A stretch of 41,826 nucleotides of DNA. Source: a virus. A model generated the notes under the pieces. That model was not told the origin of the DNA. It saw nothing but the letters and a program-made list of their open reading frames with translations, and ran no database searches. Shown one piece after another: positions 475 through 38,423 of the stretch. The stretch is taken from positions 1 to 41,826 of IMG/VR virus record IMGVR_UViG_3300025266_000013. One strand, 5' to 3'. Made by a program: the position numbers and the translations under genes. Within the stretch, counting starts at the first letter, position 1. Each line of letters opens with the position of its first letter.

Positions 475-3400
475 CATAAATGATCAAACAGAAAAAGCTT
501 TTAGTTTAGATGCTTTCCTTGGTCTTGACAAGCCAGTTAATAAAGTAGGTGGAGTGTCCACAAAAAGTGCTCCAAAACCTGTCAATGCACCTGTTGGCAA
601 GCAGTCTTTCAAACTAACAAAGGAGGATAAAAGCCTACTACTTGACTTTGTTCCTGTTGTTGGTGACATTAAGGGTGCTTACGAGACAGTAGATATGATC
701 TCTAGTGAGCTTGAAAAAGAAAACCCTAACTACTTCTTGATTGGTATTCTAGGAGGTGTTGGCGCTGTAGCTACTATTATTGGACTAGTTCCAGGCGCAG
801 GTGATGTTGCTCAAAAAGCACTAATGGCAGGGGCAAGAAGTGTTGCTAGTGGCGCTAAAGCTGCTGGGCGTGGTGTTGTTGATTTAGCACAACGTGTAGA
901 GGTTGACCCTAACGCTATGGGCAGTATGGGTGGCAATATAATGCTTTCTGTATTTCCTCCCGCTGAAAATGCTGCTCGTACACAGATAGCTGGTACTCTT
1001 CCTACGTATAAGAAAGCAGATACCCTACTAAAGAATCTATCAGGTGAAGGTAAAACCCTAGACTTTGGTGCAGGTTTAGGTCTATCAAAGAAAGAGCTTA
1101 ACTTTGATACATATGAGCCTTTTCCTAAAGGTGACTTTACACCTGACTTTAATAATCCTGCCGATATACCCTCAAACTCGTATAAGAAAGTCACTAATCT
1201 AAATGTACTAAACGTAGTACCCCGTAAAGTTAGAGATACTATCGTACAAGATATTGGACGTGTGCTTGAGCCTAATGGTAGAGCCGTTATAACTACACGT
1301 GGCAGGGATGTGATGGACGCCAAGGGTACAGTTGGCCCAGAACCTATGTCTATTATAACCTCTAGGGATACTTACCAAAAAGGTTTTACTCAACCTGAAC
1401 TTAACTCCTACATAACAGAAACGCTGGGCAAAGGATTTAAAGTAACTAATAATAAGCTTGGTGCGGCTGGCGTTACAGTACATAAGCTACCTACAAAAAA
1501 CTTTAACGAAGGCGGTATAGTAATGAATGATAAACCTAAGTACCCTGACGCTGCAGTTGTTGATAAAGACAACCAAGAGATAGGATTTAGCCTTGGAGGT
1601 AATCTCTTCTTAAATGAACAGGGAGAGAATAGCCTTAGAAAAAGCTCTCTTGATATACCAGAAGGAGAAAAGGTTTCTACAAAAGAAGGCTCTATGTTTA
1701 CGAGGTTCAGTTTAGGTAGTGACTTAGATAATTTTATAATTGATATGAGTAACAAGATAGGCGATAAAATAGATGTAGACTTAGGATCTGCTGCCTTACG
1801 CTATAAAATAGGGGATAACTCTAATATATACATTGAAAACATAGGTTCTGATGCACCAAGCATAGGCTATAGGTTTTCTAAGAGATTTAACGAGGGTGGT
1901 TTAAATATGAGTGAAGAAGATCAGATGCAAGATATGCTTGTAAGTAATCCTGAACAGGGTATGGCTGAAACAGTAGACCCAGTGTCAGGCAATGATGTAC
2001 CACCAGGCTCTCTCCCTGCAGAGGTACGTGATGATGTACCTGCACAGCTAAGCGAAGGTGAGTACGTTGTACCTGCTGACGTAGTGCGTTACTTTGGTGT
2101 TAAGGCATTTGAAGATATGCGTATGCAAGCTAAGCAAGGTATGGCTGATATGGACGCAGAAGGACGTATTGGCGGTGACCCTATGCAAGAAGAAGCGTTA
2201 CCCTTTTCTGATGAAGAACTTATGACTGTAGATACACCTGAAGATGACACTATGGCTATGATGAATGAGGGTGGTGTAGTGTATGCTGCTAATGGTGTAG
2301 ATATACCTCCTGGCGTTATAGTTGATAACCCCTATGGCGGCGGTTATGGATTAGACCCTAATGACCCTACCCAAGTTGTTTCTGGTATACAAGGTGGATT
2401 AACTGGTACTGGTTATGAGTATAAAACCTATTATAATGCTGCAGGTCTTACAGTTGTTATACCTTTCTTTGATGGTGTAGCACAGGCAATGATACCAGAG
2501 GGCTATGCATCTGAAGCACCTAAAGCAGAGGTAGCACCAAGTTCAGGATCAGGCGGTAATGATGCTTCTGATGGCTTTGCACGGGCTGCTAAAGATAGAA
2601 ATACGCCAGACCCTGTAGACTATACTAAGTCTAAGGACCCTGCTGAACTACAAAAAGCTATTGGTAGTTATTATAGTAGAGGTAATAAATTAGCAAAAAA
2701 CTTAGGTTTTGCTATAAACCCTCTTGCTGGTCTAGGCATATATATGGTGGAAAAAAATAACCTTAAGAACATACAGTCTAGTGTTAATGCTTTACCAGAT
2801 GGGGAAGAAAAGACTAATTTAGAACTGTTATTAGATAAGGACAAAGGAAAAGAGTTAAGAGCAGAAACTTATGAAACAGGAGGGGGCTTTAAATCCTTCT
2901 TGGCTGATATATTTGGTGTTGGCAAGGATGAAGTGTCTGATGCTGAACCTTCAGATAACACACCTACGTATAAGTATAACACTAAATACAATACCTTATC
3001 TTCAGATGGCGCTAAAATAGGTGGTATTAGCTTAGGATCTGAGCGTGACGCATATGAACGTGCTGTAGAATCAGGTGATGATAATGCAGTTTTTCACTAT
3101 GAAGCTATTGATTCCCATCGTCAAAGGCAGAACGAGTATGCTGCATCTAATGAAGGTAAAGATCCAAAAGATTGGACGGGTGGTTCAGGTATGTCTGAGT
3201 CATCTAAAGAACAAGCTCAAAAATATGGTGGTAGTGTCGCTCAGGCACGTCAAGGGGGATCGCAAAGGACAGGTGGGGCTTTTAGTTCATTTGAAACTTC
3301 AGCCCAGCAAACACAAAGAGAGGATGAAGAGGATAATGGCGTACCTAAGAATAAAGGCGGTCTAGTACAACGCCCTAAGAAAAAGAAGAAAAACAAATAA
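467..3400 (+). CDS. 977-aa multidomain virion protein with methyltransferase-like domain
   Basis: This is a large mosaic protein in the head gene block. Residues 60-115 are a hydrophobic segment with a 'VPVVGD...VPGAGD' pattern, similar to membrane-proximal segments before toxin or effector domains. Residues ~175-342 look like a class I SAM-dependent methyltransferase: motif I 'LDFGAGLG' (198-205), an acidic strand end around D214/E217, 'VTNLNVLNVVP' (242-252) and 'IGRVLEPNGRAVI' (263-275). FNEGG linkers follow at 346-350 and 474-478, and MNEGG at 599-603. 'VPAQLSEGEYVVPADVVRYF' (524-543) resembles the 'VPA-L-GE-V' motif of tape-measure proteins. The C-terminus is a Lys-rich tail (KKKKKNK) after an NKGG motif. 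The gene overlaps its upstream neighbour. It is probably a packaged protein, possibly injected with the DNA. Methyltransferase activity and its substrate are unproven. Confidence 0.65.
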   Translation: MVDINDQTEKAFSLDAFLGLDKPVNKVGGVSTKSAPKPVNAPVGKQSFKLTKEDKSLLLDFVPVVGDIKGAYETVDMISSELEKENPNYFLIGILGGVGAVATIIGLVPGAGDVAQKALMAGARSVASGAKAAGRGVVDLAQRVEVDPNAMGSMGGNIMLSVFPPAENAARTQIAGTLPTYKKADTLLKNLSGEGKTLDFGAGLGLSKKELNFDTYEPFPKGDFTPDFNNPADIPSNSYKKVTNLNVLNVVPRKVRDTIVQDIGRVLEPNGRAVITTRGRDVMDAKGTVGPEPMSIITSRDTYQKGFTQPELNSYITETLGKGFKVTNNKLGAAGVTVHKLPTKNFNEGGIVMNDKPKYPDAAVVDKDNQEIGFSLGGNLFLNEQGENSLRKSSLDIPEGEKVSTKEGSMFTRFSLGSDLDNFIIDMSNKIGDKIDVDLGSAALRYKIGDNSNIYIENIGSDAPSIGYRFSKRFNEGGLNMSEEDQMQDMLVSNPEQGMAETVDPVSGNDVPPGSLPAEVRDDVPAQLSEGEYVVPADVVRYFGVKAFEDMRMQAKQGMADMDAEGRIGGDPMQEEALPFSDEELMTVDTPEDDTMAMMNEGGVVYAANGVDIPPGVIVDNPYGGGYGLDPNDPTQVVSGIQGGLTGTGYEYKTYYNAAGLTVVIPFFDGVAQAMIPEGYASEAPKAEVAPSSGSGGNDASDGFARAAKDRNTPDPVDYTKSKDPAELQKAIGSYYSRGNKLAKNLGFAINPLAGLGIYMVEKNNLKNIQSSVNALPDGEEKTNLELLLDKDKGKELRAETYETGGGFKSFLADIFGVGKDEVSDAEPSDNTPTYKYNTKYNTLSSDGAKIGGISLGSERDAYERAVESGDDNAVFHYEAIDSHRQRQNEYAASNEGKDPKDWTGGSGMSESSKEQAQKYGGSVAQARQGGSQRTGGAFSSFETSAQQTQREDEEDNGVPKNKGGLVQRPKKKKKNK

Positions 3401-3456
3401 ACGAGGACACCCAGTAATGATGCTGGCCCCTAATAATAATAATAAGGAAACAAACT

Positions 3457-4371
3457 ATGGCTGAAGCCCAAGCACAAGAAACTACGTATATCAAGAACAA
3501 CCGTAATGCAGAACGTATTGCAAGAGAAGAGGCAGAGCTTAAAGAGCTTATGAGGAATCATGTCGGAGCAGAACAAGAAGAATCCGATAGCGAGGGAACT
3601 CAGGAAGCCCAAGTTCAGGATGAGAGTAATCCCGAACAAGAAGCTACCCAAGAGGCATCTGAAGCACAAGAAGCAGATGACGCAAGCCTGACGGGTGAAG
3701 AGCGCAGCTATAAGAAACGTTACGCAGATATACAAAAGCACTTGGCTAAAAAAGAGTCAGAGTTTAAAGACCGCATAGGAAGCCTTGAAGGTCAGCTACA
3801 GAAGGCTGCTAAAAATGAGCTTGTACTACCTAAGACAGATCAGGACATTGAAGCTTGGTCAAAGAAATACCCTGACGTAGCATCCATTGTTGAGGCTATC
3901 GCAGACAAGAAAGCGCAAGAGCGCTCAAGTGACTTAGACAACCGTATGCAGGAGCTAGAAGAGCTACGTGTTACGGCTAAGAAAGAAAAAGCAGAAGCAG
4001 AGCTAATGAGCTTTCACCCTGACTTTAAAACTATTCGTAGTGATGACGCATTCCACAACTGGGCAGGTGAACAGCCTAAGTGGGTACAAGATGCTTTGTA
4101 TGAGAACCTAGATGACGCTAAGTCAGTTTCTCGTGTGATTGACTTATACAAGTCAGATAACAATATCACTACTAAGAAAGGTAACACTAGCGATAAGGCA
4201 GCAGCAAGCTCTGTCAAAGCTAGAACAAGGAATACTCCTGAGACTGACGATACTGCAGCACAGTGGCGAGAATCTCAAGTGAGTAAAATGTCTGTTCGTG
4301 AATATGAAAAGCATTCAGATGCTATCATGGAATCAATTCGCAGCGGAAAATTTGTCTATGATATGAAATAA
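3457..4371 (+). CDS. Capsid assembly scaffolding protein
   Basis: This is a 304-aa acidic, highly charged, mostly helical protein placed directly before the major capsid gene, the usual place for a podovirus scaffold. Residues ~40-75 are a Glu/Gln/Ala-rich disordered stretch. Coiled-coil-like segments lie near residues 80-115 and 145-185. The C-terminus ends in a basic helix ('SIRSGKFVYDMK'), fitting the helix that scaffolds use to bind coat subunits. Scaffold proteins guide procapsid assembly and leave or are degraded before DNA fills the head. An AAGGAAA Shine-Dalgarno lies just upstream of the ATG. The function is inferred from context and composition rather than a sequence signature. Confidence 0.8.
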   Translation: MAEAQAQETTYIKNNRNAERIAREEAELKELMRNHVGAEQEESDSEGTQEAQVQDESNPEQEATQEASEAQEADDASLTGEERSYKKRYADIQKHLAKKESEFKDRIGSLEGQLQKAAKNELVLPKTDQDIEAWSKKYPDVASIVEAIADKKAQERSSDLDNRMQELEELRVTAKKEKAEAELMSFHPDFKTIRSDDAFHNWAGEQPKWVQDALYENLDDAKSVSRVIDLYKSDNNITTKKGNTSDKAAASSVKARTRNTPETDDTAAQWRESQVSKMSVREYEKHSDAIMESIRSGKFVYDMK

Positions 4372-4374
4372 CTA

Positions 4375-4402
4375 TTGACAAACAGATAATTGTAGATATA
4401 AC
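4375..4402 (+). promoter_or_regulatory. Sigma70-like promoter for major capsid gene
   Basis: TTGACA (4375-4380) is followed after 16 nt by TATAAC (4397-4402), a perfect -35 and a one-mismatch -10. It starts just after the scaffold stop codon and faces the capsid gene. The same hexamers, spacing and downstream bases (TATAACTAnCTTT) occur in front of the SSB-like gene on the other strand at 36367-36394. Start of transcription would be near 4409, giving a leader of about 160 nt. This is a prediction from sequence only. Confidence 0.7.
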
Positions 4403-4403
4403 T

Positions 4404-4570
4404 ATCTTTACACAAGCCGAAAAGAACTACCCATTTGACTATAGGACCACACTAATAGGGGTTGCGCTACCTCTACAAGTATGATACCCTAAAAAGAACG
4501 GCCCTCTTCATTCGGATATGAATGTGTAACTATATTAACCAGCCATTCATCATCTAAAGGAGAATATAAC
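4404..4570 (+). promoter_or_regulatory. Long structured leader of the capsid mRNA
   Basis: This is part of the longest non-coding stretch in the window (4372-4570). Two hairpins can be drawn. The first is a 7-bp stem at 4456-4462/4469-4475 with loop TGCGCT and one G-U pair. The second is a 5-bp stem CATTC/GAATG at 4509-4513/4520-4524. The GAATG arm could instead pair with a second CATTC(A) at 4544-4549, close to the Shine-Dalgarno AAAGGAG (4556-4562), so two folds compete. No known riboswitch was recognised. A role in message stability or in tuning capsid translation is an inference. Confidence 0.4.
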
Positions 4571-5641
4571 ATGGCTTTTACATCAACAGCAGGGTACGGG
4601 AACTTACCAAATGGTAACTTCAGCCCTATCATCTACAGCAAACAGGTACAGCTTGCGTTTCGCAAGAGCGCTGTAGCTAATGCTATTACTAACAATGATT
4701 ATTTTGGTGAGATCGCAAACCAAGGCGATACCGTTAAAATTATGAAGGAACCAGAGGTTTCTGTTAAGCAGTACACTCGTGGTGCTCAGATCACAGCACA
4801 AGATCTTGACGATGAAGATTTTCAGCTTGTGGTAGACAAAAGCAACTACTTTGCTTTCAAGATTGACGATATCGAAGAGGCACACAGCCACATAGATTTC
4901 ATGCAACTTGCAACGGATCGTGCAGCATACCGTTTAGCTGATCAAATGGACCAAGAATGCCTTGGCTATTTGTCTGGTTACAAGCAGTCTGCTTTACATG
5001 CTGATGCAGATGCAGTCAATGACGTAACAAACGGCACACTCGCTGTAGATACTGCTGGTACTGACGAATTGTTGACAACTATGAAGCTACGCAAGGATTC
5101 ATTTGGTAACATAACAACAAGTTCAGCAGGGGATCACTCTATTCCTTTGACACCTCGTTTTGGTGGCGCTACTGCTGCAAGCACATCTGTTGCATCACCT
5201 TTGCAGGTTATTGCACGTATGGGTCGCTTGCTTGACCAACAGAATGTAGACTCTCGTGGTCGCTGGCTGGTCTTGGACGCTGTATTTATGGAACTCTTGA
5301 AAGACGAAGATTCACGAGTATTAAATGCAGATCAGGGTGGCTCAGGTCTCCAGAATGGTCTTGTATTGAACAACCTACACGGCTTCCGTATCTATCAGTC
5401 AAATAACCTACCTTCAGTGGGTACAGGCTCAGGTACGTCAGGTTCAGCTAACCAGGACACTAACTACGGTGTGATTGTTGCTGGCCATGATTCAGCAGTT
5501 GCTTCTGCAGAGCAGATCAACAAAGTTGAGTCATATCGTGACCCAGACTCATTTTCCGACATTGTTCGTGGAATGCATCTATACGGCAGGAAGATTCTTC
5601 GTCCAGAAGCAATCGTAACTGCTAAATATAACGCAGCGTAA
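4571..5641 (+). CDS. Major capsid protein
   Basis: This is a 356-aa protein directly after the scaffold gene, with the strongest promoter and ribosome-binding site (AAAGGAG) of the arm in front of it. Length and layout fit an HK97-fold coat protein of HMO-2011-like phages. It has an N-terminal arm with 'QVQLAFRKSAVANAITN', a central 'GDTVKI' strand region, an Ala/Asp-rich domain, and a C-terminal 'GRKILRPEAIVTAKYN' strand typical of phage coats that end in a beta-strand of the P domain. It would form the icosahedral shell. No protease gene or cleavage site was recognised next to it, so maturation without proteolysis is likely, as in other podoviruses. Confidence 0.88.
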   Translation: MAFTSTAGYGNLPNGNFSPIIYSKQVQLAFRKSAVANAITNNDYFGEIANQGDTVKIMKEPEVSVKQYTRGAQITAQDLDDEDFQLVVDKSNYFAFKIDDIEEAHSHIDFMQLATDRAAYRLADQMDQECLGYLSGYKQSALHADADAVNDVTNGTLAVDTAGTDELLTTMKLRKDSFGNITTSSAGDHSIPLTPRFGGATAASTSVASPLQVIARMGRLLDQQNVDSRGRWLVLDAVFMELLKDEDSRVLNADQGGSGLQNGLVLNNLHGFRIYQSNNLPSVGTGSGTSGSANQDTNYGVIVAGHDSAVASAEQINKVESYRDPDSFSDIVRGMHLYGRKILRPEAIVTAKYNAA

Positions 5642-31156: not shown

Positions 31157-33052
31157 TTATACTAGGTCTACGATTTCACAGGAGTCACCTGAACACGCTA
31201 ATGTCTGGCTACCTGCAGTGTTGTCTTCACTTTCATACTCTGAAAGCTTAGACCAGTCAATAGACTTTGGCATTAATGACTTAAGCATTGTATAGTCACT
31301 CTTGCCGCAGTCTTGGTAAGGAGCTTGTTGGTACGTATGATCATTGAATGGCAGGAATGATACGCCTGACATCTCATCAAAGTACTTGTACACAAAAGCA
31401 CCTACTTCAAACCACTCATCATTCTTCACATTAATAGTGACAGATGGTTTGTGTTCACACCAGTTACGCTGGTAGGCTAACCACATTTCAAGCTGCTCAA
31501 TAGCAGACATGTCAGCAGTACATACTGCGCCCTCTGGAGCCTTCATCGGAAAGCTAAACACCGTTGTTTGGTCAGGCTTGAATACCTCTGGTGCATTAGG
31601 GACGCCTTGATCCTTCATGAACTGTGTTAGAGGATCTTTGTTGTCACCACGTACAGTACGAATATAATAGGGTGAGTGCCTAGCGTGAATACCGCTACTG
31701 GAATCAACCAGTTGTGATACCGTACCTGAAGGTTTATTACAGCTGATAGCAGTAGAGACAGGGATGCCAAGGCGCTCAGCCCACTCAGCATTAGTAGCAA
31801 CAGCGATAGACTTAAGATGCTCAAGGGTCTTATCCAATCCTTTGTTCTTGAGTGTCATGAGTGGGTTATCCATGATACCTGTGAGTGACACGCCTAGTAG
31901 ACGCTCTTCTTCTGTGTTTGTCTGCCAAAGCTTACGCAAGTAAGGCATCTTAGTGAAGGTAGCCTGAATTGTACCTAAGATGGTAGCAAGACGTACTTTC
32001 TCTGATAGAGTATCAATAGTATCAGTAGCACGTACTACTACCTCTGTTAAATTACAAAACTGGTATGGGCGTAGGATGATCTCACTGCAAGGATTAGTTC
32101 CAAAGTCATAGTTAGGATCACGTCTACCATTCTTAGCTGCTTGCTTCTTAGATGCTTCACGGTTGAAGATACCACGCTCACCAGAGCCAGACTCAACCAG
32201 AGACATCCACTCACGCATAAACGACAGGCTATCAGGCTTCTCAGTGTAGGATACAGAGTTGTTAGCCAAGGCACGTTGTGGATTGTTCTCCCACCATGAG
32301 CCTGACTTAGCTGAACGCATACGATCATCTGATAGATTACTCAATGATATCATAGCACTACGGCGTACACCACCGACTACTACTACTTCACCAATCTTAC
32401 ACATGATGTCGTGACACTCAATAGAAGATAACTTTCTTTCTTCTGCTTTCTTAAATGTGTTGATAGTAAAGTTAAATAGGTCTACAAGTGGTGCTGGGCC
32501 ACTAGCCCTACCACCAAACGTTTTAAGCGGTGCGCCAGCTGCACGTACTTTAGATACGTCCCACGTTGGGATCTCACCACTATATAGGAGCGCAATCAAT
32601 TGACGCAAAGACTTAGCCCACCCCTCCTTACTATCCCTGACAACGATGTTAGTCTCGCTCTGGAAGAGTTGAGGCACCTCTGGAAGCTTAGTGATGAACT
32701 GCCTTTCTACACTGAAGCCAACGCCAGTGCCACAGAGGAGGATAAACATAGCCTCATCGAAGGACTTAAGGTCATCTACGGGTAGGAAGCTACAGTTATA
32801 CATACAGGTGTTGTCACGTTCTGCTGCTGAACCTGCTGTCATTAAGCTACGCATAGAAGGCATTACTTCTAAGCCCAGTATAGCTTGCTCTAGTTTATAC
32901 TTTGTCTCTGCGTCAACTAAGTCACGGATTATATTTACTGAGTATCGTGTTACTGTATCATCCCATGACTCCCGACCTTCACCGTCATAGTACTTAGCAT
33001 ACCGTGACTTGTGAATAAATGATTGGTAGTCTGTTGGTAGGTGGTTGTTCAT
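31157..33052 (-). CDS. nrdJ: Class II (B12-dependent) ribonucleotide reductase
   Basis: This 631-aa enzyme is a single-chain, adenosylcobalamin-dependent reductase of the Lactobacillus RTPR kind, making deoxynucleotides from ribonucleotides. Signs are 'NPCSEI' (N320, C322, E324), where C322 carries the thiyl radical. C87 in 'YNCSFL' and C333 in 'QFCNL' probably form the redox pair. 'GTGVGFSVER' lies at ~108-117. A C-terminal Cys pair ('CSGDSC') would shuttle electrons. It needs no oxygen and no small subunit; the host must supply B12. Typical family length is a little above this, with no visible truncation. It sits in one message with MazG and glutaredoxin, overlapping the upstream small gene by ATGA. 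Confidence 0.9.
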   Translation of the reverse strand: MNNHLPTDYQSFIHKSRYAKYYDGEGRESWDDTVTRYSVNIIRDLVDAETKYKLEQAILGLEVMPSMRSLMTAGSAAERDNTCMYNCSFLPVDDLKSFDEAMFILLCGTGVGFSVERQFITKLPEVPQLFQSETNIVVRDSKEGWAKSLRQLIALLYSGEIPTWDVSKVRAAGAPLKTFGGRASGPAPLVDLFNFTINTFKKAEERKLSSIECHDIMCKIGEVVVVGGVRRSAMISLSNLSDDRMRSAKSGSWWENNPQRALANNSVSYTEKPDSLSFMREWMSLVESGSGERGIFNREASKKQAAKNGRRDPNYDFGTNPCSEIILRPYQFCNLTEVVVRATDTIDTLSEKVRLATILGTIQATFTKMPYLRKLWQTNTEEERLLGVSLTGIMDNPLMTLKNKGLDKTLEHLKSIAVATNAEWAERLGIPVSTAISCNKPSGTVSQLVDSSSGIHARHSPYYIRTVRGDNKDPLTQFMKDQGVPNAPEVFKPDQTTVFSFPMKAPEGAVCTADMSAIEQLEMWLAYQRNWCEHKPSVTINVKNDEWFEVGAFVYKYFDEMSGVSFLPFNDHTYQQAPYQDCGKSDYTMLKSLMPKSIDWSKLSEYESEDNTAGSQTLACSGDSCEIVDLV

Positions 33053-34623: not shown

Positions 34624-35461
34624 TGTGTACGTAGTCTACCATTGGTGGCTCCTTAGCCTTAGACATTACAGAGGGAAGAGTCTGTAACTGAGGCCAACAA
34701 CGTTGTTTGTAATCACAGAAGCCACAGGCCCTACTAAGCTTTATGTTGCCTGTAGGCTTCTTATAGAAGGTCTCAGGCTCTGCCTCAAAGCAACGCTTGA
34801 AAGGTTTGTCTTCGTCAATGTAAGCTACTGTAGCCTTCATCTCATCTAAGACTTTCTCTTTGTCTACGTTAGCTGCAGAGACATACTTGAAGTCACCTGT
34901 ACCTTTATTGATTGCCCACCAGCCCCCTACAGGAGCGCCTTCTGCTTCTGCATAGCCTACAAGCTGTGGGATGTAACCAAACCCATCACCAGAGTTGAGT
35001 GCTTCAAAGCTGGCAAACTTGTTAGTGTAGGACCAAGGAGAGGTAGACTTAACGTCATCTACCTTACCGTCTAGCTTCATGTCGTACTCGCCATTGATCT
35101 TACGCCCATCTAAGTCAAGCGTAACCTTTGCATTGTCCTCAAAGTCAACGTCAGCACCACGTAGTAAGCCTTTAAACACAGCCTCTACAATGTCACCAAT
35201 CATCATCATCATTAAAAAGCGTGGCGGGAATGCTGTCTTGTACTCAGGCTCATTCTTATCAAACCAAAGCTGACAAGTAGGACGCCCAATGTTGGACATC
35301 CTTAACCTAAATGCATCCCGTGGACCTCCGTTGAACTGCTTATTCATTGCATCTCCAACATCAGACATAACCTTATCAATTATGCTTTGATCCATTCCTT
35401 TTTTACCAGCAAGAACAGAGTTCATGTAGCTGTGAAGGGATAGCTCTGCAGGATGCTCCAT
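34607..35461 (-). CDS. Cas4/RecB-like PD-(D/E)XK nuclease with Fe-S cysteines
   Basis: This 284-aa nuclease has the Cas4/RecB layout. C63 lies before the nuclease core and C246, C249 and C255 ('CGFCDYKQRC') follow it, giving four cysteines that can bind an iron-sulfur cluster. The core shows 'GEYD' (124-127) with D127, 'DDVK' (135-138) with D136 and K138, and the Q166/Y170 'QxxxY' motif. Such phage enzymes are exonucleases used in recombination or DNA breakdown. It overlaps the SSB-like gene by TAATG and endonuclease I by 17 nt, which places it in a recombination and DNA-processing group. No CRISPR array is present, so a replication or recombination role is more likely than spacer uptake. Confidence 0.85.
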   Translation of the reverse strand: MEHPAELSLHSYMNSVLAGKKGMDQSIIDKVMSDVGDAMNKQFNGGPRDAFRLRMSNIGRPTCQLWFDKNEPEYKTAFPPRFLMMMMIGDIVEAVFKGLLRGADVDFEDNAKVTLDLDGRKINGEYDMKLDGKVDDVKSTSPWSYTNKFASFEALNSGDGFGYIPQLVGYAEAEGAPVGGWWAINKGTGDFKYVSAANVDKEKVLDEMKATVAYIDEDKPFKRCFEAEPETFYKKPTGNIKLSRACGFCDYKQRCWPQLQTLPSVMSKAKEPPMVDYVHIEVPQ

Positions 35462-36330
35462 TACTCAAACTCCTCCACGTCAACAATAGAAGCAATGATT
35501 TCCTTTTCATAATCATCTACGTCCTGACGATTGTTCTCATCCCACTTAGCTAGGATGCCACTATTAGTAACTTCAACAAACTCTAAGAAGTCCTTGAGGA
35601 TTTCATTGTCACCCTCTTGTACATCTACGAGATCAGGTGCGCTGAACGTGTAGGACGCATACTGGTTGCCATTAGGTAAGTCATGTATACCTGCGCCTAG
35701 AGTTACGTTGTACTGGATAGGCAGCTTGTTCTTACGTGCTGTAGTAGAGATATAGCCATTCAATGCTTTGACGCTAAGCTTGTTCTTAACGTCTGTAACG
35801 AATGGCATATTAACGTAGTCACCTGTGATACTCTTACCATCTGCATCTGTAGCATCATCAAGAGTAATAAGACCAAAGACAACCATAGTACGGCTGATAG
35901 AACGAATAAGGTTCTTTGTAGTCTCTGATGTTGCATCCCAATCTTTGATGTAACCTGGACGCCCTAAGTTAAAGCCACCCTTAGTATCCTTGAAGTCACC
36001 CTTAAGATCAGTAGCCATTACTGTCTTGTTCATGGCGTTCAACTCACTGTCAAACTGTGTCCACTGCTGGCGGATAGCGAAGATACGGATCTTAGGGTTC
36101 TCTGAATAGATGGCTGTGTCTTCATCCAAGGTCAGCTTGTAAACACCTACAGGCATTACCTCTGTCTTGATTTTCTTACCAGCTACTTCCATCAGCCCCA
36201 TAGCTGCTTGGTGTACCTGTGTCAGCCGTGCTAGGGTTGACTTAGAAGATGGACTATTTGCATTAGCTACTCCCATCATTTCTGCTAGGGATTGACCTGA
36301 TTCATTTGCTACTGTTAGTTGTGTACTCAT
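35461..36330 (-). CDS. Probable single-stranded DNA-binding protein
   Basis: This 289-aa protein is first in its message after the polymerase and ahead of nucleases, the place of T7 gp2.5-type SSB in other podoviruses. The body is beta-pattern in the middle ('GVYKLTLDEDTAIYSENPKI', 'VTLGAGIHDLPNGNQYASYT') and the C-terminus is acidic ('DYEKEIIASIVDVEEFE'), as in many SSBs, whose acidic tail recruits partners. I see no clear OB-fold signature by eye, so this remains a contextual call; an annealing or recombination protein is the alternative. AAAGG precedes the ATG, and its own sigma70-like promoter lies at 36367-36394. Confidence 0.6.
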   Translation of the reverse strand: MSTQLTVANESGQSLAEMMGVANANSPSSKSTLARLTQVHQAAMGLMEVAGKKIKTEVMPVGVYKLTLDEDTAIYSENPKIRIFAIRQQWTQFDSELNAMNKTVMATDLKGDFKDTKGGFNLGRPGYIKDWDATSETTKNLIRSISRTMVVFGLITLDDATDADGKSITGDYVNMPFVTDVKNKLSVKALNGYISTTARKNKLPIQYNVTLGAGIHDLPNGNQYASYTFSAPDLVDVQEGDNEILKDFLEFVEVTNSGILAKWDENNRQDVDDYEKEIIASIVDVEEFE

Positions 36331-36366: not shown

Positions 36367-36394
36367 GTTATACATTAAACGTCAACTGTGTCAA
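36367..36394 (-). promoter_or_regulatory. Sigma70-like promoter for SSB-to-HNH message
   Basis: On the minus strand TTGACA (36394-36389) is followed after 16 nt by TATAAC (36372-36367), then TAACTTT. The hexamers and spacing equal those of the capsid promoter at 4375-4402. The -35 lies in the last codons of the polymerase gene. It would drive the SSB-like gene and the genes below it. Confidence 0.65.
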
Positions 36395-38423
36395 GCCAGT
36401 TGATGCCTATTTTTGCTTCTAATAGTAGAGGGACATTCATTGTTACACCGTATGCCTTCTCTACTAGATCGTTTAAGTCTTCATTCAAGTCGTTAATTAT
36501 CTGTATTACTTGAACTTCTTCGTCTGGGTGTATGTCAATTACTGTTGAGTCATGCACTGTATTCACTAAGCAAGATTGTAACGGTTTTAATCTATCTTCT
36601 AATTCATTCAGGACTACAGGAACTACGTCACCTGTTGCAAATCCCTGCACTGGATAGTTCTTAATCATAGTGAAGAATGTAGGTGTACCGTTAGCTCTCC
36701 TAGTAATGCCAGGAAATGCATACTGCCTACCTGACACGTTAGTAATCTTCTCTAGACGTATAGCCTCGTTGCCTAGACTCTTGTGCCACTTAGCTATACC
36801 CTTGTATTTGTTGATAAACTCTTCGTAGTAAGCAGCTTCTGCTTTGCTTCTACCATATCCACTAGCCCCGAAGAGGGGAGCAAACGTGTGTTCCTTTCCT
36901 TCTTGACGGGTAGTAGGCTGACCAGCATCAGAGATAACCTTGGCAGTGTAGCTGTGTACATCAAAGCCTGTAGCAATCTCTTCCATAGCTGTCTCATCCT
37001 GTGCTAGGAAAGCTGCTGTTCTAAACTCAAGCTGAGCAAAGTCTGCCTCACAAATCAGACCGCCATCCCAACGAGATATAAACACACGCTTTACTGGAAA
37101 TGTCCCTCCTCTTGGCATGTTTTGCATGTTAGGGTTTCTACCACTAAACCTACCTGTAGCTGTGATGTGTTGGGTAAGAGTGACATGGAGATAGGAGTCA
37201 CCTCTGGTATAGTCTGAGATACCTTCCACAAAGGAGCTAAGGTAGGAGCTAACAGCAGATAGCCTACGTAGATCACCAAGGAAACTGACAGCGTAATCCA
37301 ATCCCCTCGTTTTAGCATTTGATATGAGAACATCTAATTTATCCTTCCCTGTTCCAAAACCATTTGCACTGACCCAAGCCTTGTTAGGTGGGAAGAACCC
37401 TAGCCCTGCAAGCTTGTCTAGCTTTTTTAGTTGGTAGCCTCTAGCACTGCAATCTTTACAGTTGTTAGGCTTAGAGTAAGGCGTACCATCTTTCTTCTCC
37501 TTGAACGTCTTGCCCTTACCCTTACAAATAGGGCAGGTAAAAGCTTTGGTCTTGTATGTACGCTCTGTATTTTTAGTTACTACTTCTTTGAACTCAGCCC
37601 TATTGTTTACATAATCAAACAGGTCAACCCAAGTTTTCTTCTCATTGAGAGTGCAACTGTATACTACAGATGACATCTGCTCTGGTGAGTTGAGGTTTAC
37701 TGGTGTATCCCCCATAAGCATACGTACTTGTTTCGTAAGCCTCTCTTCTATAGCTATCTTCTCTTCTTCAAACTCTTTACGTACTAATTCTAAGGCAGGT
37801 TTATCCACCCTGACTCCCGACATGTACATTCTTGTAAGGGTTTTACAGGTTCTGAAGGTAACGTTTTTGACTCGTAGTAGGGAGTCGGACTCAGGCTTGG
37901 CGTAGTCAGCTTCGATTGCGAAGAACAACTCACGAGTGACATCAAGGTCGCGGCGCAGATAAAAGCTAAGCTCATCAAGAGGTATTTCATTTGTGTTATA
38001 CCCTTTCTTAAAGTACTCCTTTAAAGTATCATCTTTCTGGAAGTCTAGTTCACGGCGCTGGGCGCAACCGTCCATGCTCAGTACGTCTTTTTTTCCTCTC
38101 AGTAAAATATACTCAGCTAACATAGTGTCATATATGTCACCATCATACGTGAAGCCACACTCCCACAACCACATGAGGTCATGCTGTGCGTTGTGCATAA
38201 TTAGTAGAGTAGTCTCGTCTAGGATCAACTGTATCTGCTTAGCTTGTAGTCCAGAGTTATCTTTCTTTTCTACATGGTCTAACGTAAAGATGTTTGTTTC
38301 ATTAACGTTGTCTATATTCTGTGTACCTACTTGAGTAAGTGTATTGCTTGGCTCAAAGGGGTCCATGTGTAGCCTACCGTTACGTTTGGTAGTTGTGTTC
38401 TCAACGTCTAATACTAGTCTCAT
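36375..38423 (-). CDS. Family A DNA polymerase with inserted DnaJ-type zinc-finger half
   Basis: This 682-aa replicative polymerase has a 3'-5' exonuclease (D6/E8; N78/D82; Y155-D159) and a polymerase domain: motif A 'DFAQLE' (D461-E466), motif B R506-xxx-K510 with F514 and F518-G519, and motif C 'VHDS' (H624-D625). Between the two lies 'CPICKGKG' (C297, C300) and 'CKDCSARG' (C322, C325), half of a DnaJ central zinc-finger domain. This arrangement is a hallmark of the HMO-2011 phage group. F514 is the position that in E. coli Pol I is Phe762, a residue linked in marine phages to lifestyle. At the place of Tyr766 it has Phe (F518). It reads just after the helicase gene with a 12-nt gap. Confidence 0.95.
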   Translation of the reverse strand: MRLVLDVENTTTKRNGRLHMDPFEPSNTLTQVGTQNIDNVNETNIFTLDHVEKKDNSGLQAKQIQLILDETTLLIMHNAQHDLMWLWECGFTYDGDIYDTMLAEYILLRGKKDVLSMDGCAQRRELDFQKDDTLKEYFKKGYNTNEIPLDELSFYLRRDLDVTRELFFAIEADYAKPESDSLLRVKNVTFRTCKTLTRMYMSGVRVDKPALELVRKEFEEEKIAIEERLTKQVRMLMGDTPVNLNSPEQMSSVVYSCTLNEKKTWVDLFDYVNNRAEFKEVVTKNTERTYKTKAFTCPICKGKGKTFKEKKDGTPYSKPNNCKDCSARGYQLKKLDKLAGLGFFPPNKAWVSANGFGTGKDKLDVLISNAKTRGLDYAVSFLGDLRRLSAVSSYLSSFVEGISDYTRGDSYLHVTLTQHITATGRFSGRNPNMQNMPRGGTFPVKRVFISRWDGGLICEADFAQLEFRTAAFLAQDETAMEEIATGFDVHSYTAKVISDAGQPTTRQEGKEHTFAPLFGASGYGRSKAEAAYYEEFINKYKGIAKWHKSLGNEAIRLEKITNVSGRQYAFPGITRRANGTPTFFTMIKNYPVQGFATGDVVPVVLNELEDRLKPLQSCLVNTVHDSTVIDIHPDEEVQVIQIINDLNEDLNDLVEKAYGVTMNVPLLLEAKIGINWLDTVDV

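Follow-up and report, generated by a model that had tools for sequence, protein, structure and literature searches.

Consensus sigma70-type promoters and a conserved structured leader RNA, probably a translational switch, at the capsid gene of HMO-2011-type phages

The DNA analyzed here (the window: 41,826 nucleotides, IMG/VR record IMGVR_UViG_3300025266_000013) carries a major capsid gene on the plus strand, preceded by a promoter and a structured 5′ leader, and, on the minus strand, a second promoter with the same hexamers ahead of a replication-arm gene (Table 1). The minus arm encodes a family A DNA polymerase, a DnaB-like helicase, ThyX and a B12-dependent ribonucleotide reductase. The product of the gene behind the second promoter, termed SSB-like in the preliminary description, has no Pfam or PHROG match, and its homologues are annotated as hypothetical in seven phage records. 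The capsid protein is at most 73% identical to the coat proteins of HMO-2011-type phages (Rhodobacteraceae, Puniceispirillum), and the capsid homology, the replication genes and the arm layout of this group are all present in the window. As the record spans 41.8 kb and the 13 named relatives searched whole span 52.7–56.2 kb, the window covers only part of an HMO-2011-type phage genome of ~55 kb. Beyond the capsid, known members (HMO-2011, the CRP phages, phiM6) share with it a homologous replication-arm gene, both promoters in all five genomes mapped, and the leader RNA in 13 of the 14 HMO-2011, CRP, Manatee Spring and phiM6 records; the difference is that the window's genome is incomplete. 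The relative G001 (55,772 bases) aligns with the window in 12 pieces longer than 300 bases, nine at 89–95% and three at 73–85% identity, and includes stretches absent from the window.

Table 1. Coordinates of the promoters, leader elements and neighboring genes in the window.
Feature	Position	Strand	Basis or detail
Capsid promoter	4375..4402	+	−35 TTGACA 4375–4380, N16, −10 TATAAC 4397–4402 (C at −7), then T
Predicted transcription start, capsid	4409..4410	+	Inferred from spacing, 7–8 bases past the −10
Capsid mRNA 5′ leader	4410..4570	+	Structured core (model match 4403–4528) and Shine-Dalgarno hairpin
P1 5′ strands (ACAC 4410–4413, CCGAA 4417–4421) and P2 5′ strand (AAGA 4422–4425)	4410..4425	+	Paired by hand in the window; P1/P2 covary in relatives
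Internal loop 1, long strand ACTAC	4426..4430	+	Short strand 4502–4504, CCC in the window
P4 (4442–4445 with 4488–4491), internal loop 2, apical stem with GCGC loop	4442..4491	+	Fold, covariation
UCUUC	4505..4509	+	4505–4508 is the P2 3′ strand in the core; 4505–4509 pairs with GGAGA (Shine-Dalgarno) in the minimum-energy fold
P1 3′ strands (UUCGG 4511–4515, GUGU 4524–4527)	4511..4527	+	Overlap AUGAAUG 4518–4524, the 5′ arm of the Shine-Dalgarno hairpin
Alternative hairpin 3′ arm CAUUCAU (4544–4550) and Shine-Dalgarno AAGGAGA (4557–4563)	4544..4563	+	Fold, sequence
Major capsid (coat) protein gene	4571..5641	+	PHROG 267, 1.7e-65; Pfam PF25209; annotated as coat protein in relatives
Gene behind the second promoter	35461..36330	−	Homologues in relatives
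Second promoter	36367..36394	−	−35 TTGACA 36389–36394, −10 TATAAC 36367–36372; next gene starts at 36330
DNA polymerase ORF	36375..38423	−	Family A

A search of both strands of the 41,826 bases for TTGACA-N(14–19)-TATAAC yields just two matches, each with a 16-base spacer, against a mean of 0.06 and a maximum of 1 in 100 dinucleotide shuffles, which bears out the matched pair of promoters first noticed in this sequence. When one mismatch is allowed at spacers of 16–17, two further sites appear, at 31668 (+) and 33890 (−), both inside genes, so that the claim of no other intergenic copy holds for the window. The sequence TATAACTANCTTT matches exactly at the two promoters only, and with up to two mismatches it is found 10 times against 9.12 expected; the wider string TATAACTAnCTTT is likewise exact in the window at these two places only, and the reported likeness of the bases following the −10 is real within the window. 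The placement of both sites exactly at gene boundaries proved only partly accurate. The capsid promoter does start three bases past the stop codon of the upstream ORF (3457–4371), but the leader separates the end of its −10 (4402) from the capsid ATG (4571); the −35 of the second promoter lies within the last codons of the DNA polymerase gene and the −10 alone is intergenic, so the conservation of this promoter is partly shared with coding sequence. The capsid start is predicted at 7–8 bases past the −10; section 5 of PMC8407463 gives six bases between −10 and start as the commonest spacing.

Conservation of the capsid promoter was assessed in 90 loci, comprising the 80 top-ranked among no fewer than 599 capsid relatives together with the 13 named phages and the window, minus four truncated loci (L013, L024, L035 and L048). 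With a scoring that favors C at −7, the best site matched all 12 hexamer bases in 71 of these loci, 11 in seven and fewer in 12. A scan blind to the last −10 base, applied to 168 loci (these 90 plus 78 pattern-match loci, some sharing contigs), located a site in 149; among the 96 distinct promoters, 95 carry C at −7, 95 carry T at −6 and 94 have TTGACA, with a spacer of 16 in 86 and 17 in 10. Several of the 19 loci lacking a site are short of upstream sequence, and four belong to CRP-212, CRP-738, CRP-3 and CRP-235. The second promoter, as TTGACA-N16/17-TATAAC, is kept in all 22 relatives' loci examined (of 27 fetched). In relatives the promoter is thus conserved as a unit while the spacers diverge. 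The similarity beyond TATAACT behaves differently: TAACTTT occurs in only two of seven distinct leaders of the second gene, the bases past TATAACT differ, and the extra shared bases AnCTTT are not conserved among relatives, whose capsid leaders vary there. A shared operator covering both start regions was rejected on these grounds.

The two sites do not form a unique pair either. Across 23 records, TTGACA-N15–18-TATAAY yields 45 matches against five for the reversed control pattern, with no match in CRP-212, CRP-738, CRP-3 or CRP-235. Five complete genomes of named phages each have the motif (up to one mismatch, or TATAAT) at four shared places, namely ahead of the replication-arm gene (33–37 bases from its start), ahead of the capsid gene, and twice near 53 kb on the structural strand, along with a few other matches, some of them intragenic. 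G001 contains two more perfect copies of TTGACA-N16-TATAAC, at 3928 (−) and 3040 (−), in a stretch absent from the window; its motif sites comprise both window-type promoters, a third ahead of the gene homologous to that behind the upstream 53-kb site, and a fourth ahead of another ORF. The search of relatives thus supported the conservation of the motif and removed the special status of the pair: since both promoters belong to a larger set, with four sites in each of the five named genomes, the idea of a lone matched pair was discarded. As a side observation, the two extra promoters of G001 lie on the minus strand within 2600–3990 (L123), where the second opens an AT-rich stretch full of TAGTTACTA-like repeats, which is perhaps an origin or regulatory region.

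With −35 and −10 hexamers at the 16–18 base spacing required of a sigma70 promoter, both sites are, judged by sequence, consensus promoters for the host's primary sigma70 polymerase and two of about four conserved in HMO-2011-type phages; they are presumably used in vivo. T7-type RNA polymerase (PF00940), the one polymerase family searched for, was detected in none of 15 records (the window and 14 relatives), although the T7 positive control was found. This agrees with the initial remark that no phage RNA polymerase gene is visible, and, together with the conservation of the motif between diverged spacers, supports the proposal that host sigma70 polymerase transcribes both blocks. Since transcription appears to be of the host type, neither a phage polymerase nor a shared regulator is needed. 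The base at −7 is informative in this respect. T is the usual −7 base in most bacterial groups, whereas alphaproteobacterial sigma70 promoters often lack it, and CarD has been proposed to compensate (PMC8407463); according to section 5 of that paper, over 60% of the promoters mapped in its alphaproteobacteria have no T at −7, and the four bases are on average about equally common there in the hosts studied. The phage sites resemble this −7A/C/G class in their TTGACA −35, TANAAN −10, spacing of 16–17 and absence of T at −7 (PMC8407463), and C at −7 in 95 of 96 distinct capsid promoters fits the host sigma70 of Alphaproteobacteria; they differ in nearly fixing C, although the sites are mutually related. 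Whether CarD drives promoters of this class, as proposed, could be tested directly on the near-fixed −7C. The match could also be explained by a regulator, from phage or host, that binds both promoters, given the identical 12 bases at the two sites and the near-fixation of −7C and −6T at capsid promoters (95 of 96 each), but what the two sites have in common is the very sequence that sigma70 contacts, and spacers and downstream bases differ both between the two sites and among relatives. We consider such a regulator highly improbable, and the originally suggested shared regulator or shared initiation sequence was not supported by the comparison, in which further copies of the motif appeared and the likeness past TATAACT was lost.

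Comparison of the ~160-nt leaders between the capsid promoter and the capsid gene provides good support for a conserved structured RNA, with conserved blocks flanking variable yet complementary stretches. The comparison was based on model R1, built from 16 CRP-9-like leaders with the window left out, which recovered the window leader at 34.2 bits (E 5.7e-5). Run against 74 sources totaling 646,515 bases, R1 gave 44 matches at E ≤ 1, every one of them at a capsid leader; six are repeats of a leader already counted or of a near-identical one, whole-genome pieces having also been searched. At E ≤ 0.1, R1 matched 53 of 71 non-redundant loci, and nine of the 18 it missed were matched by a second model, R2, at E < 0.1. 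In alignments fitted to the structure, the 53 sequences display two-sided changes in 31 of 32 pairs, with 88.0% of paired cells complementary (65.2% when shuffled, at most 46.4% when slid) and a covariation score of 0.542 (0.171 and at most 0.092, respectively). Ten sequences kept out of R2, chosen as R2 finds and including Sinorhizobium phage phiM6 and Rhizobium phage RHph_I3_11, reach 87.1% paired against 59.0%, covary at 24 of 31 pairs and score 0.629 against 0.191. P1 is the weakest helix, with 69.2% paired in these ten loci and 80.1% for its main part in the 53 sequences. G-U cells outnumber A-C cells by 120 to 58, as expected for an RNA of the coding strand, and the sense strand folds better in 38 of 53.

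The core established by this comparison is a long interrupted hairpin, P1–P5, that contains two copies of one asymmetric internal loop (ACUAC//CC) in opposite orientations. All 53 sequences have AC at the end of the long strand in both loops (consensus ACUAC or CAC), and the short strand is CC in 52 of 53 each, the loop 1 exception being the CCC of the window; a third, similar motif lies just past the promoter in 26 of 53 by a loose pattern. For P1 in the window the model alignment differs from the hand pairing given in Table 1, by which the predicted transcript and P1 would start with the same base. In 34 of 53 sequences the apical tetraloop (A3 alignment, columns 72–92) can pair with itself, being GGCC, GCGC or another self-complementary 4-mer; such a loop would allow kissing between two leaders.

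Of 27 records, 24 have a single copy of the leader RNA, always just before the capsid gene, and rhizobial phages also carry it; CRP-738 and the pelagiphages HTVC115P and HTVC103P gave no match among these 27. In all 80 IMG/VR pattern matches examined, of at least 120, the capsid start lies 108–197 bases downstream, and the promoter is present in 69 of the 70 pattern-match loci with enough upstream sequence. No copy was found elsewhere in the genomes, with one match per record and, in the window searched with filters off, a next best match at E 0.7. Two exact patterns of the CRP-9-like subgroup, which more divergent copies would escape, had no match among 84,980 genomes of bacteria and archaea. 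For the leader, no Rfam family passed its gathering cut-off, and none matched the leader's own strand up to E 5. Matches below threshold (E ≤ 5) were BjrC68 outside the leader (16.6 of 39 bits) and sR51 on the opposite strand of the window leader (13.6 of 38 bits). A tRNA or known RNA within the leader was rejected, as none was found at curated cut-offs.

Promoter and leader are separable and do not form a fixed unit, because MW202701 has an annotated endonuclease gene that parts the leader from a promoter-like site (spacer 18), and because phiM6 and RHph_I3_11 keep the leader with no adjoining TTGACA/TATAAC-like promoter (best sites 8 and 9 of 12 bases). In the MW202701.1 locus (L111), the HNH-type endonuclease gene overlaps the 5′ edge of the leader, which is kept; four further loci (L033, L036, L067 and L076) appear to have the same endonuclease arrangement when judged from sequence alone, the annotation being that of MW202701 only.

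In a predicted alternative fold, the 3′ strands of P1 and P2 pair instead with the capsid Shine-Dalgarno region, which would make the two folds mutually exclusive and sequester the Shine-Dalgarno. When the segment from the loop 1 CC to the ATG is folded, at least four of the six Shine-Dalgarno bases are paired in 45 of 53 minimum-energy folds, with a mean z of −2.4. Median Shine-Dalgarno accessibility is 0.17 in native leaders, 0.30 with shuffled upstream sequence and 0.50 with P1/P2 forced, and the native value falls below the shuffled-upstream value in 39 of 53 leaders. With P1/P2 forced, no more than 27 of 53 leaders gain over 0.3 in accessibility, and the median energy cost is 9.0 kcal/mol, so that opening would require assistance. 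Taken singly, the CRP-9, HMO-2011 and CRP-2 leaders have z values of −3.43, −2.34 and −2.16, and the window leader is not significant against its shuffles (z −1.19, 22 of 200 as good). The hairpin has two-sided changes in none of 16 pairs in the largest subgroup and is weak or absent in the HMO-2011/CRP-1-like subgroup; its stems differ between subgroups yet still pair. Folding energy and these different stems in other subgroups are what argue for the hairpin. For phiM6 and RHph_I3_11, folded as single sequences without shuffles, the same two-part layout including the Shine-Dalgarno hairpin is predicted.

Considering the overlap between core and hairpin, the leader is probably a translational switch of capsid production. 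We lean toward the view that the promoters are ordinary sigma70 promoters and that the capsid one starts a leader acting as a switch that is off by default; the default-off state is proposed because the P1/P2 3′ strands can also pair with the Shine-Dalgarno region. Host sigma70 polymerase would start the capsid mRNA at the capsid promoter, and the leader would fold into the P1–P5 core with its two inverted ACUAC//CC loops. The P1/P2 3′ strands would be double-booked, serving either the core helices or the hairpin over the Shine-Dalgarno, with the hairpin as the default, off state. P1/P2 might be closed by the core during transcription, or by a protein or other ligand gripping the paired internal loops; with P1/P2 closed, the Shine-Dalgarno would be free and the capsid translated. 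Co-transcriptional folding alone, with the core forming first and the hairpin later, could yield a burst of translation on fresh transcripts. We infer the default state, the direction of switching and the existence and nature of a ligand from these predicted folds: if core closure frees the Shine-Dalgarno, whatever keeps the core shut should switch capsid translation on. An assembly or host protein is favored over a metabolite, because the element is found at one gene only, and a phage assembly protein is our first guess for the ligand. A more specific version is offered tentatively and, in its full form, is rather doubtful. In it, either a coat or scaffold protein acting in phage assembly or an RNA-binding protein of the host would bind, possibly in dimeric form, to the two inverted ACUAC//CC loops, close P1/P2 and free the Shine-Dalgarno, while −7C would place the capsid and replication promoters in the CarD-dependent class.

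Other functions for the leader have to be weighed against such a switch. It might play a static part without any switching, either stabilizing the abundant mRNA of the capsid or increasing ribosome loading as a standby site. Capsid mRNA is required in large amounts, the core structure is strongly conserved, and the Shine-Dalgarno hairpin is weak in one subgroup and non-covarying in another, all of which would suit this explanation; a stabilizer, however, would not need the same strands to serve both P1/P2 and the Shine-Dalgarno hairpin, as they do in diverse subgroups including, by prediction, the rhizobial phages, and the two internal loops conserved in sequence suggest a binding site. We therefore regard static stabilization or standby binding as unlikely. 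The conserved unpaired bases of these loops and the riboswitch-like sequestering hairpin bring to mind a small-molecule riboswitch, which we judge very unlikely given that the element precedes the capsid gene only (80 of 80 pattern matches examined, of at least 120, and one copy per record), that the two exact one-subgroup patterns found nothing in the 84,980 bacterial and archaeal genomes, and that it falls in no Rfam family at the cut-off.

An effect on transcription has to be considered as well, since the leader lies downstream of the capsid promoter in 69 of 70 loci and is followed by a long series of ORFs on the same strand. An antitermination element, put-like or of a similar type, past a late promoter could enable host polymerase to read through this structural block. 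In HK022, put RNA antiterminators are RNA elements close downstream of phage promoters, and the capsid leader shares this position; it differs in that each record has one copy, at the capsid leader, and none past the other conserved promoters, and in that its alternative fold targets the Shine-Dalgarno. In MW202701, moreover, the endonuclease gene separates promoter-like site and leader, so that adjacency seems not to be required. Antitermination is accordingly quite unlikely in our estimation. The translational switch has closer parallels in leader RNAs that control translation, such as riboswitches, ribosomal-protein leaders and phage coat operators, which the capsid leader resembles in being a structured 5′ leader whose conserved core looks like a binding site and whose predicted alternative hairpin covers the Shine-Dalgarno; it is distinguished by its tie to one phage capsid gene, its two inverted copies of the same internal loop and the lack of an Rfam match at the cut-off.

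The promoters thus appear to be of an ordinary kind and the leader a new family of a known kind. Searches of the literature on promoters and leader RNAs brought up no description of such a capsid leader RNA, which does not prove its absence from print; in the passages searched of two papers on HMO-2011-type phages, the terms “promoter” and “terminator” do not occur, and “leader” is absent from one paper and “riboswitch” from the other. A structured RNA found before the capsid gene only offers a way of studying how these phages time capsid production, for which host polymerase alone apparently suffices. The group is reported to be dominant and to have a broad distribution (PMC9038755), and, if the proposed switch is correct, capsid timing in a dominant group of ocean phages and in related soil phages would be set by an undescribed RNA family. 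Since phiM6, which makes small plaques on the laboratory strain S. meliloti 1021 (PMC6256558), carries the leader element, the switch could be tested in a Sinorhizobium phage.

A minor observation concerns the DNA polymerase encoded beyond the second promoter, in which residues 291–333, located between the exonuclease and polymerase parts, weakly match the DnaJ central (zinc finger) domain (PF00684, E 0.0034, below the cut-off). The DNA polymerase of HMO-2011 presumably contains this same domain.
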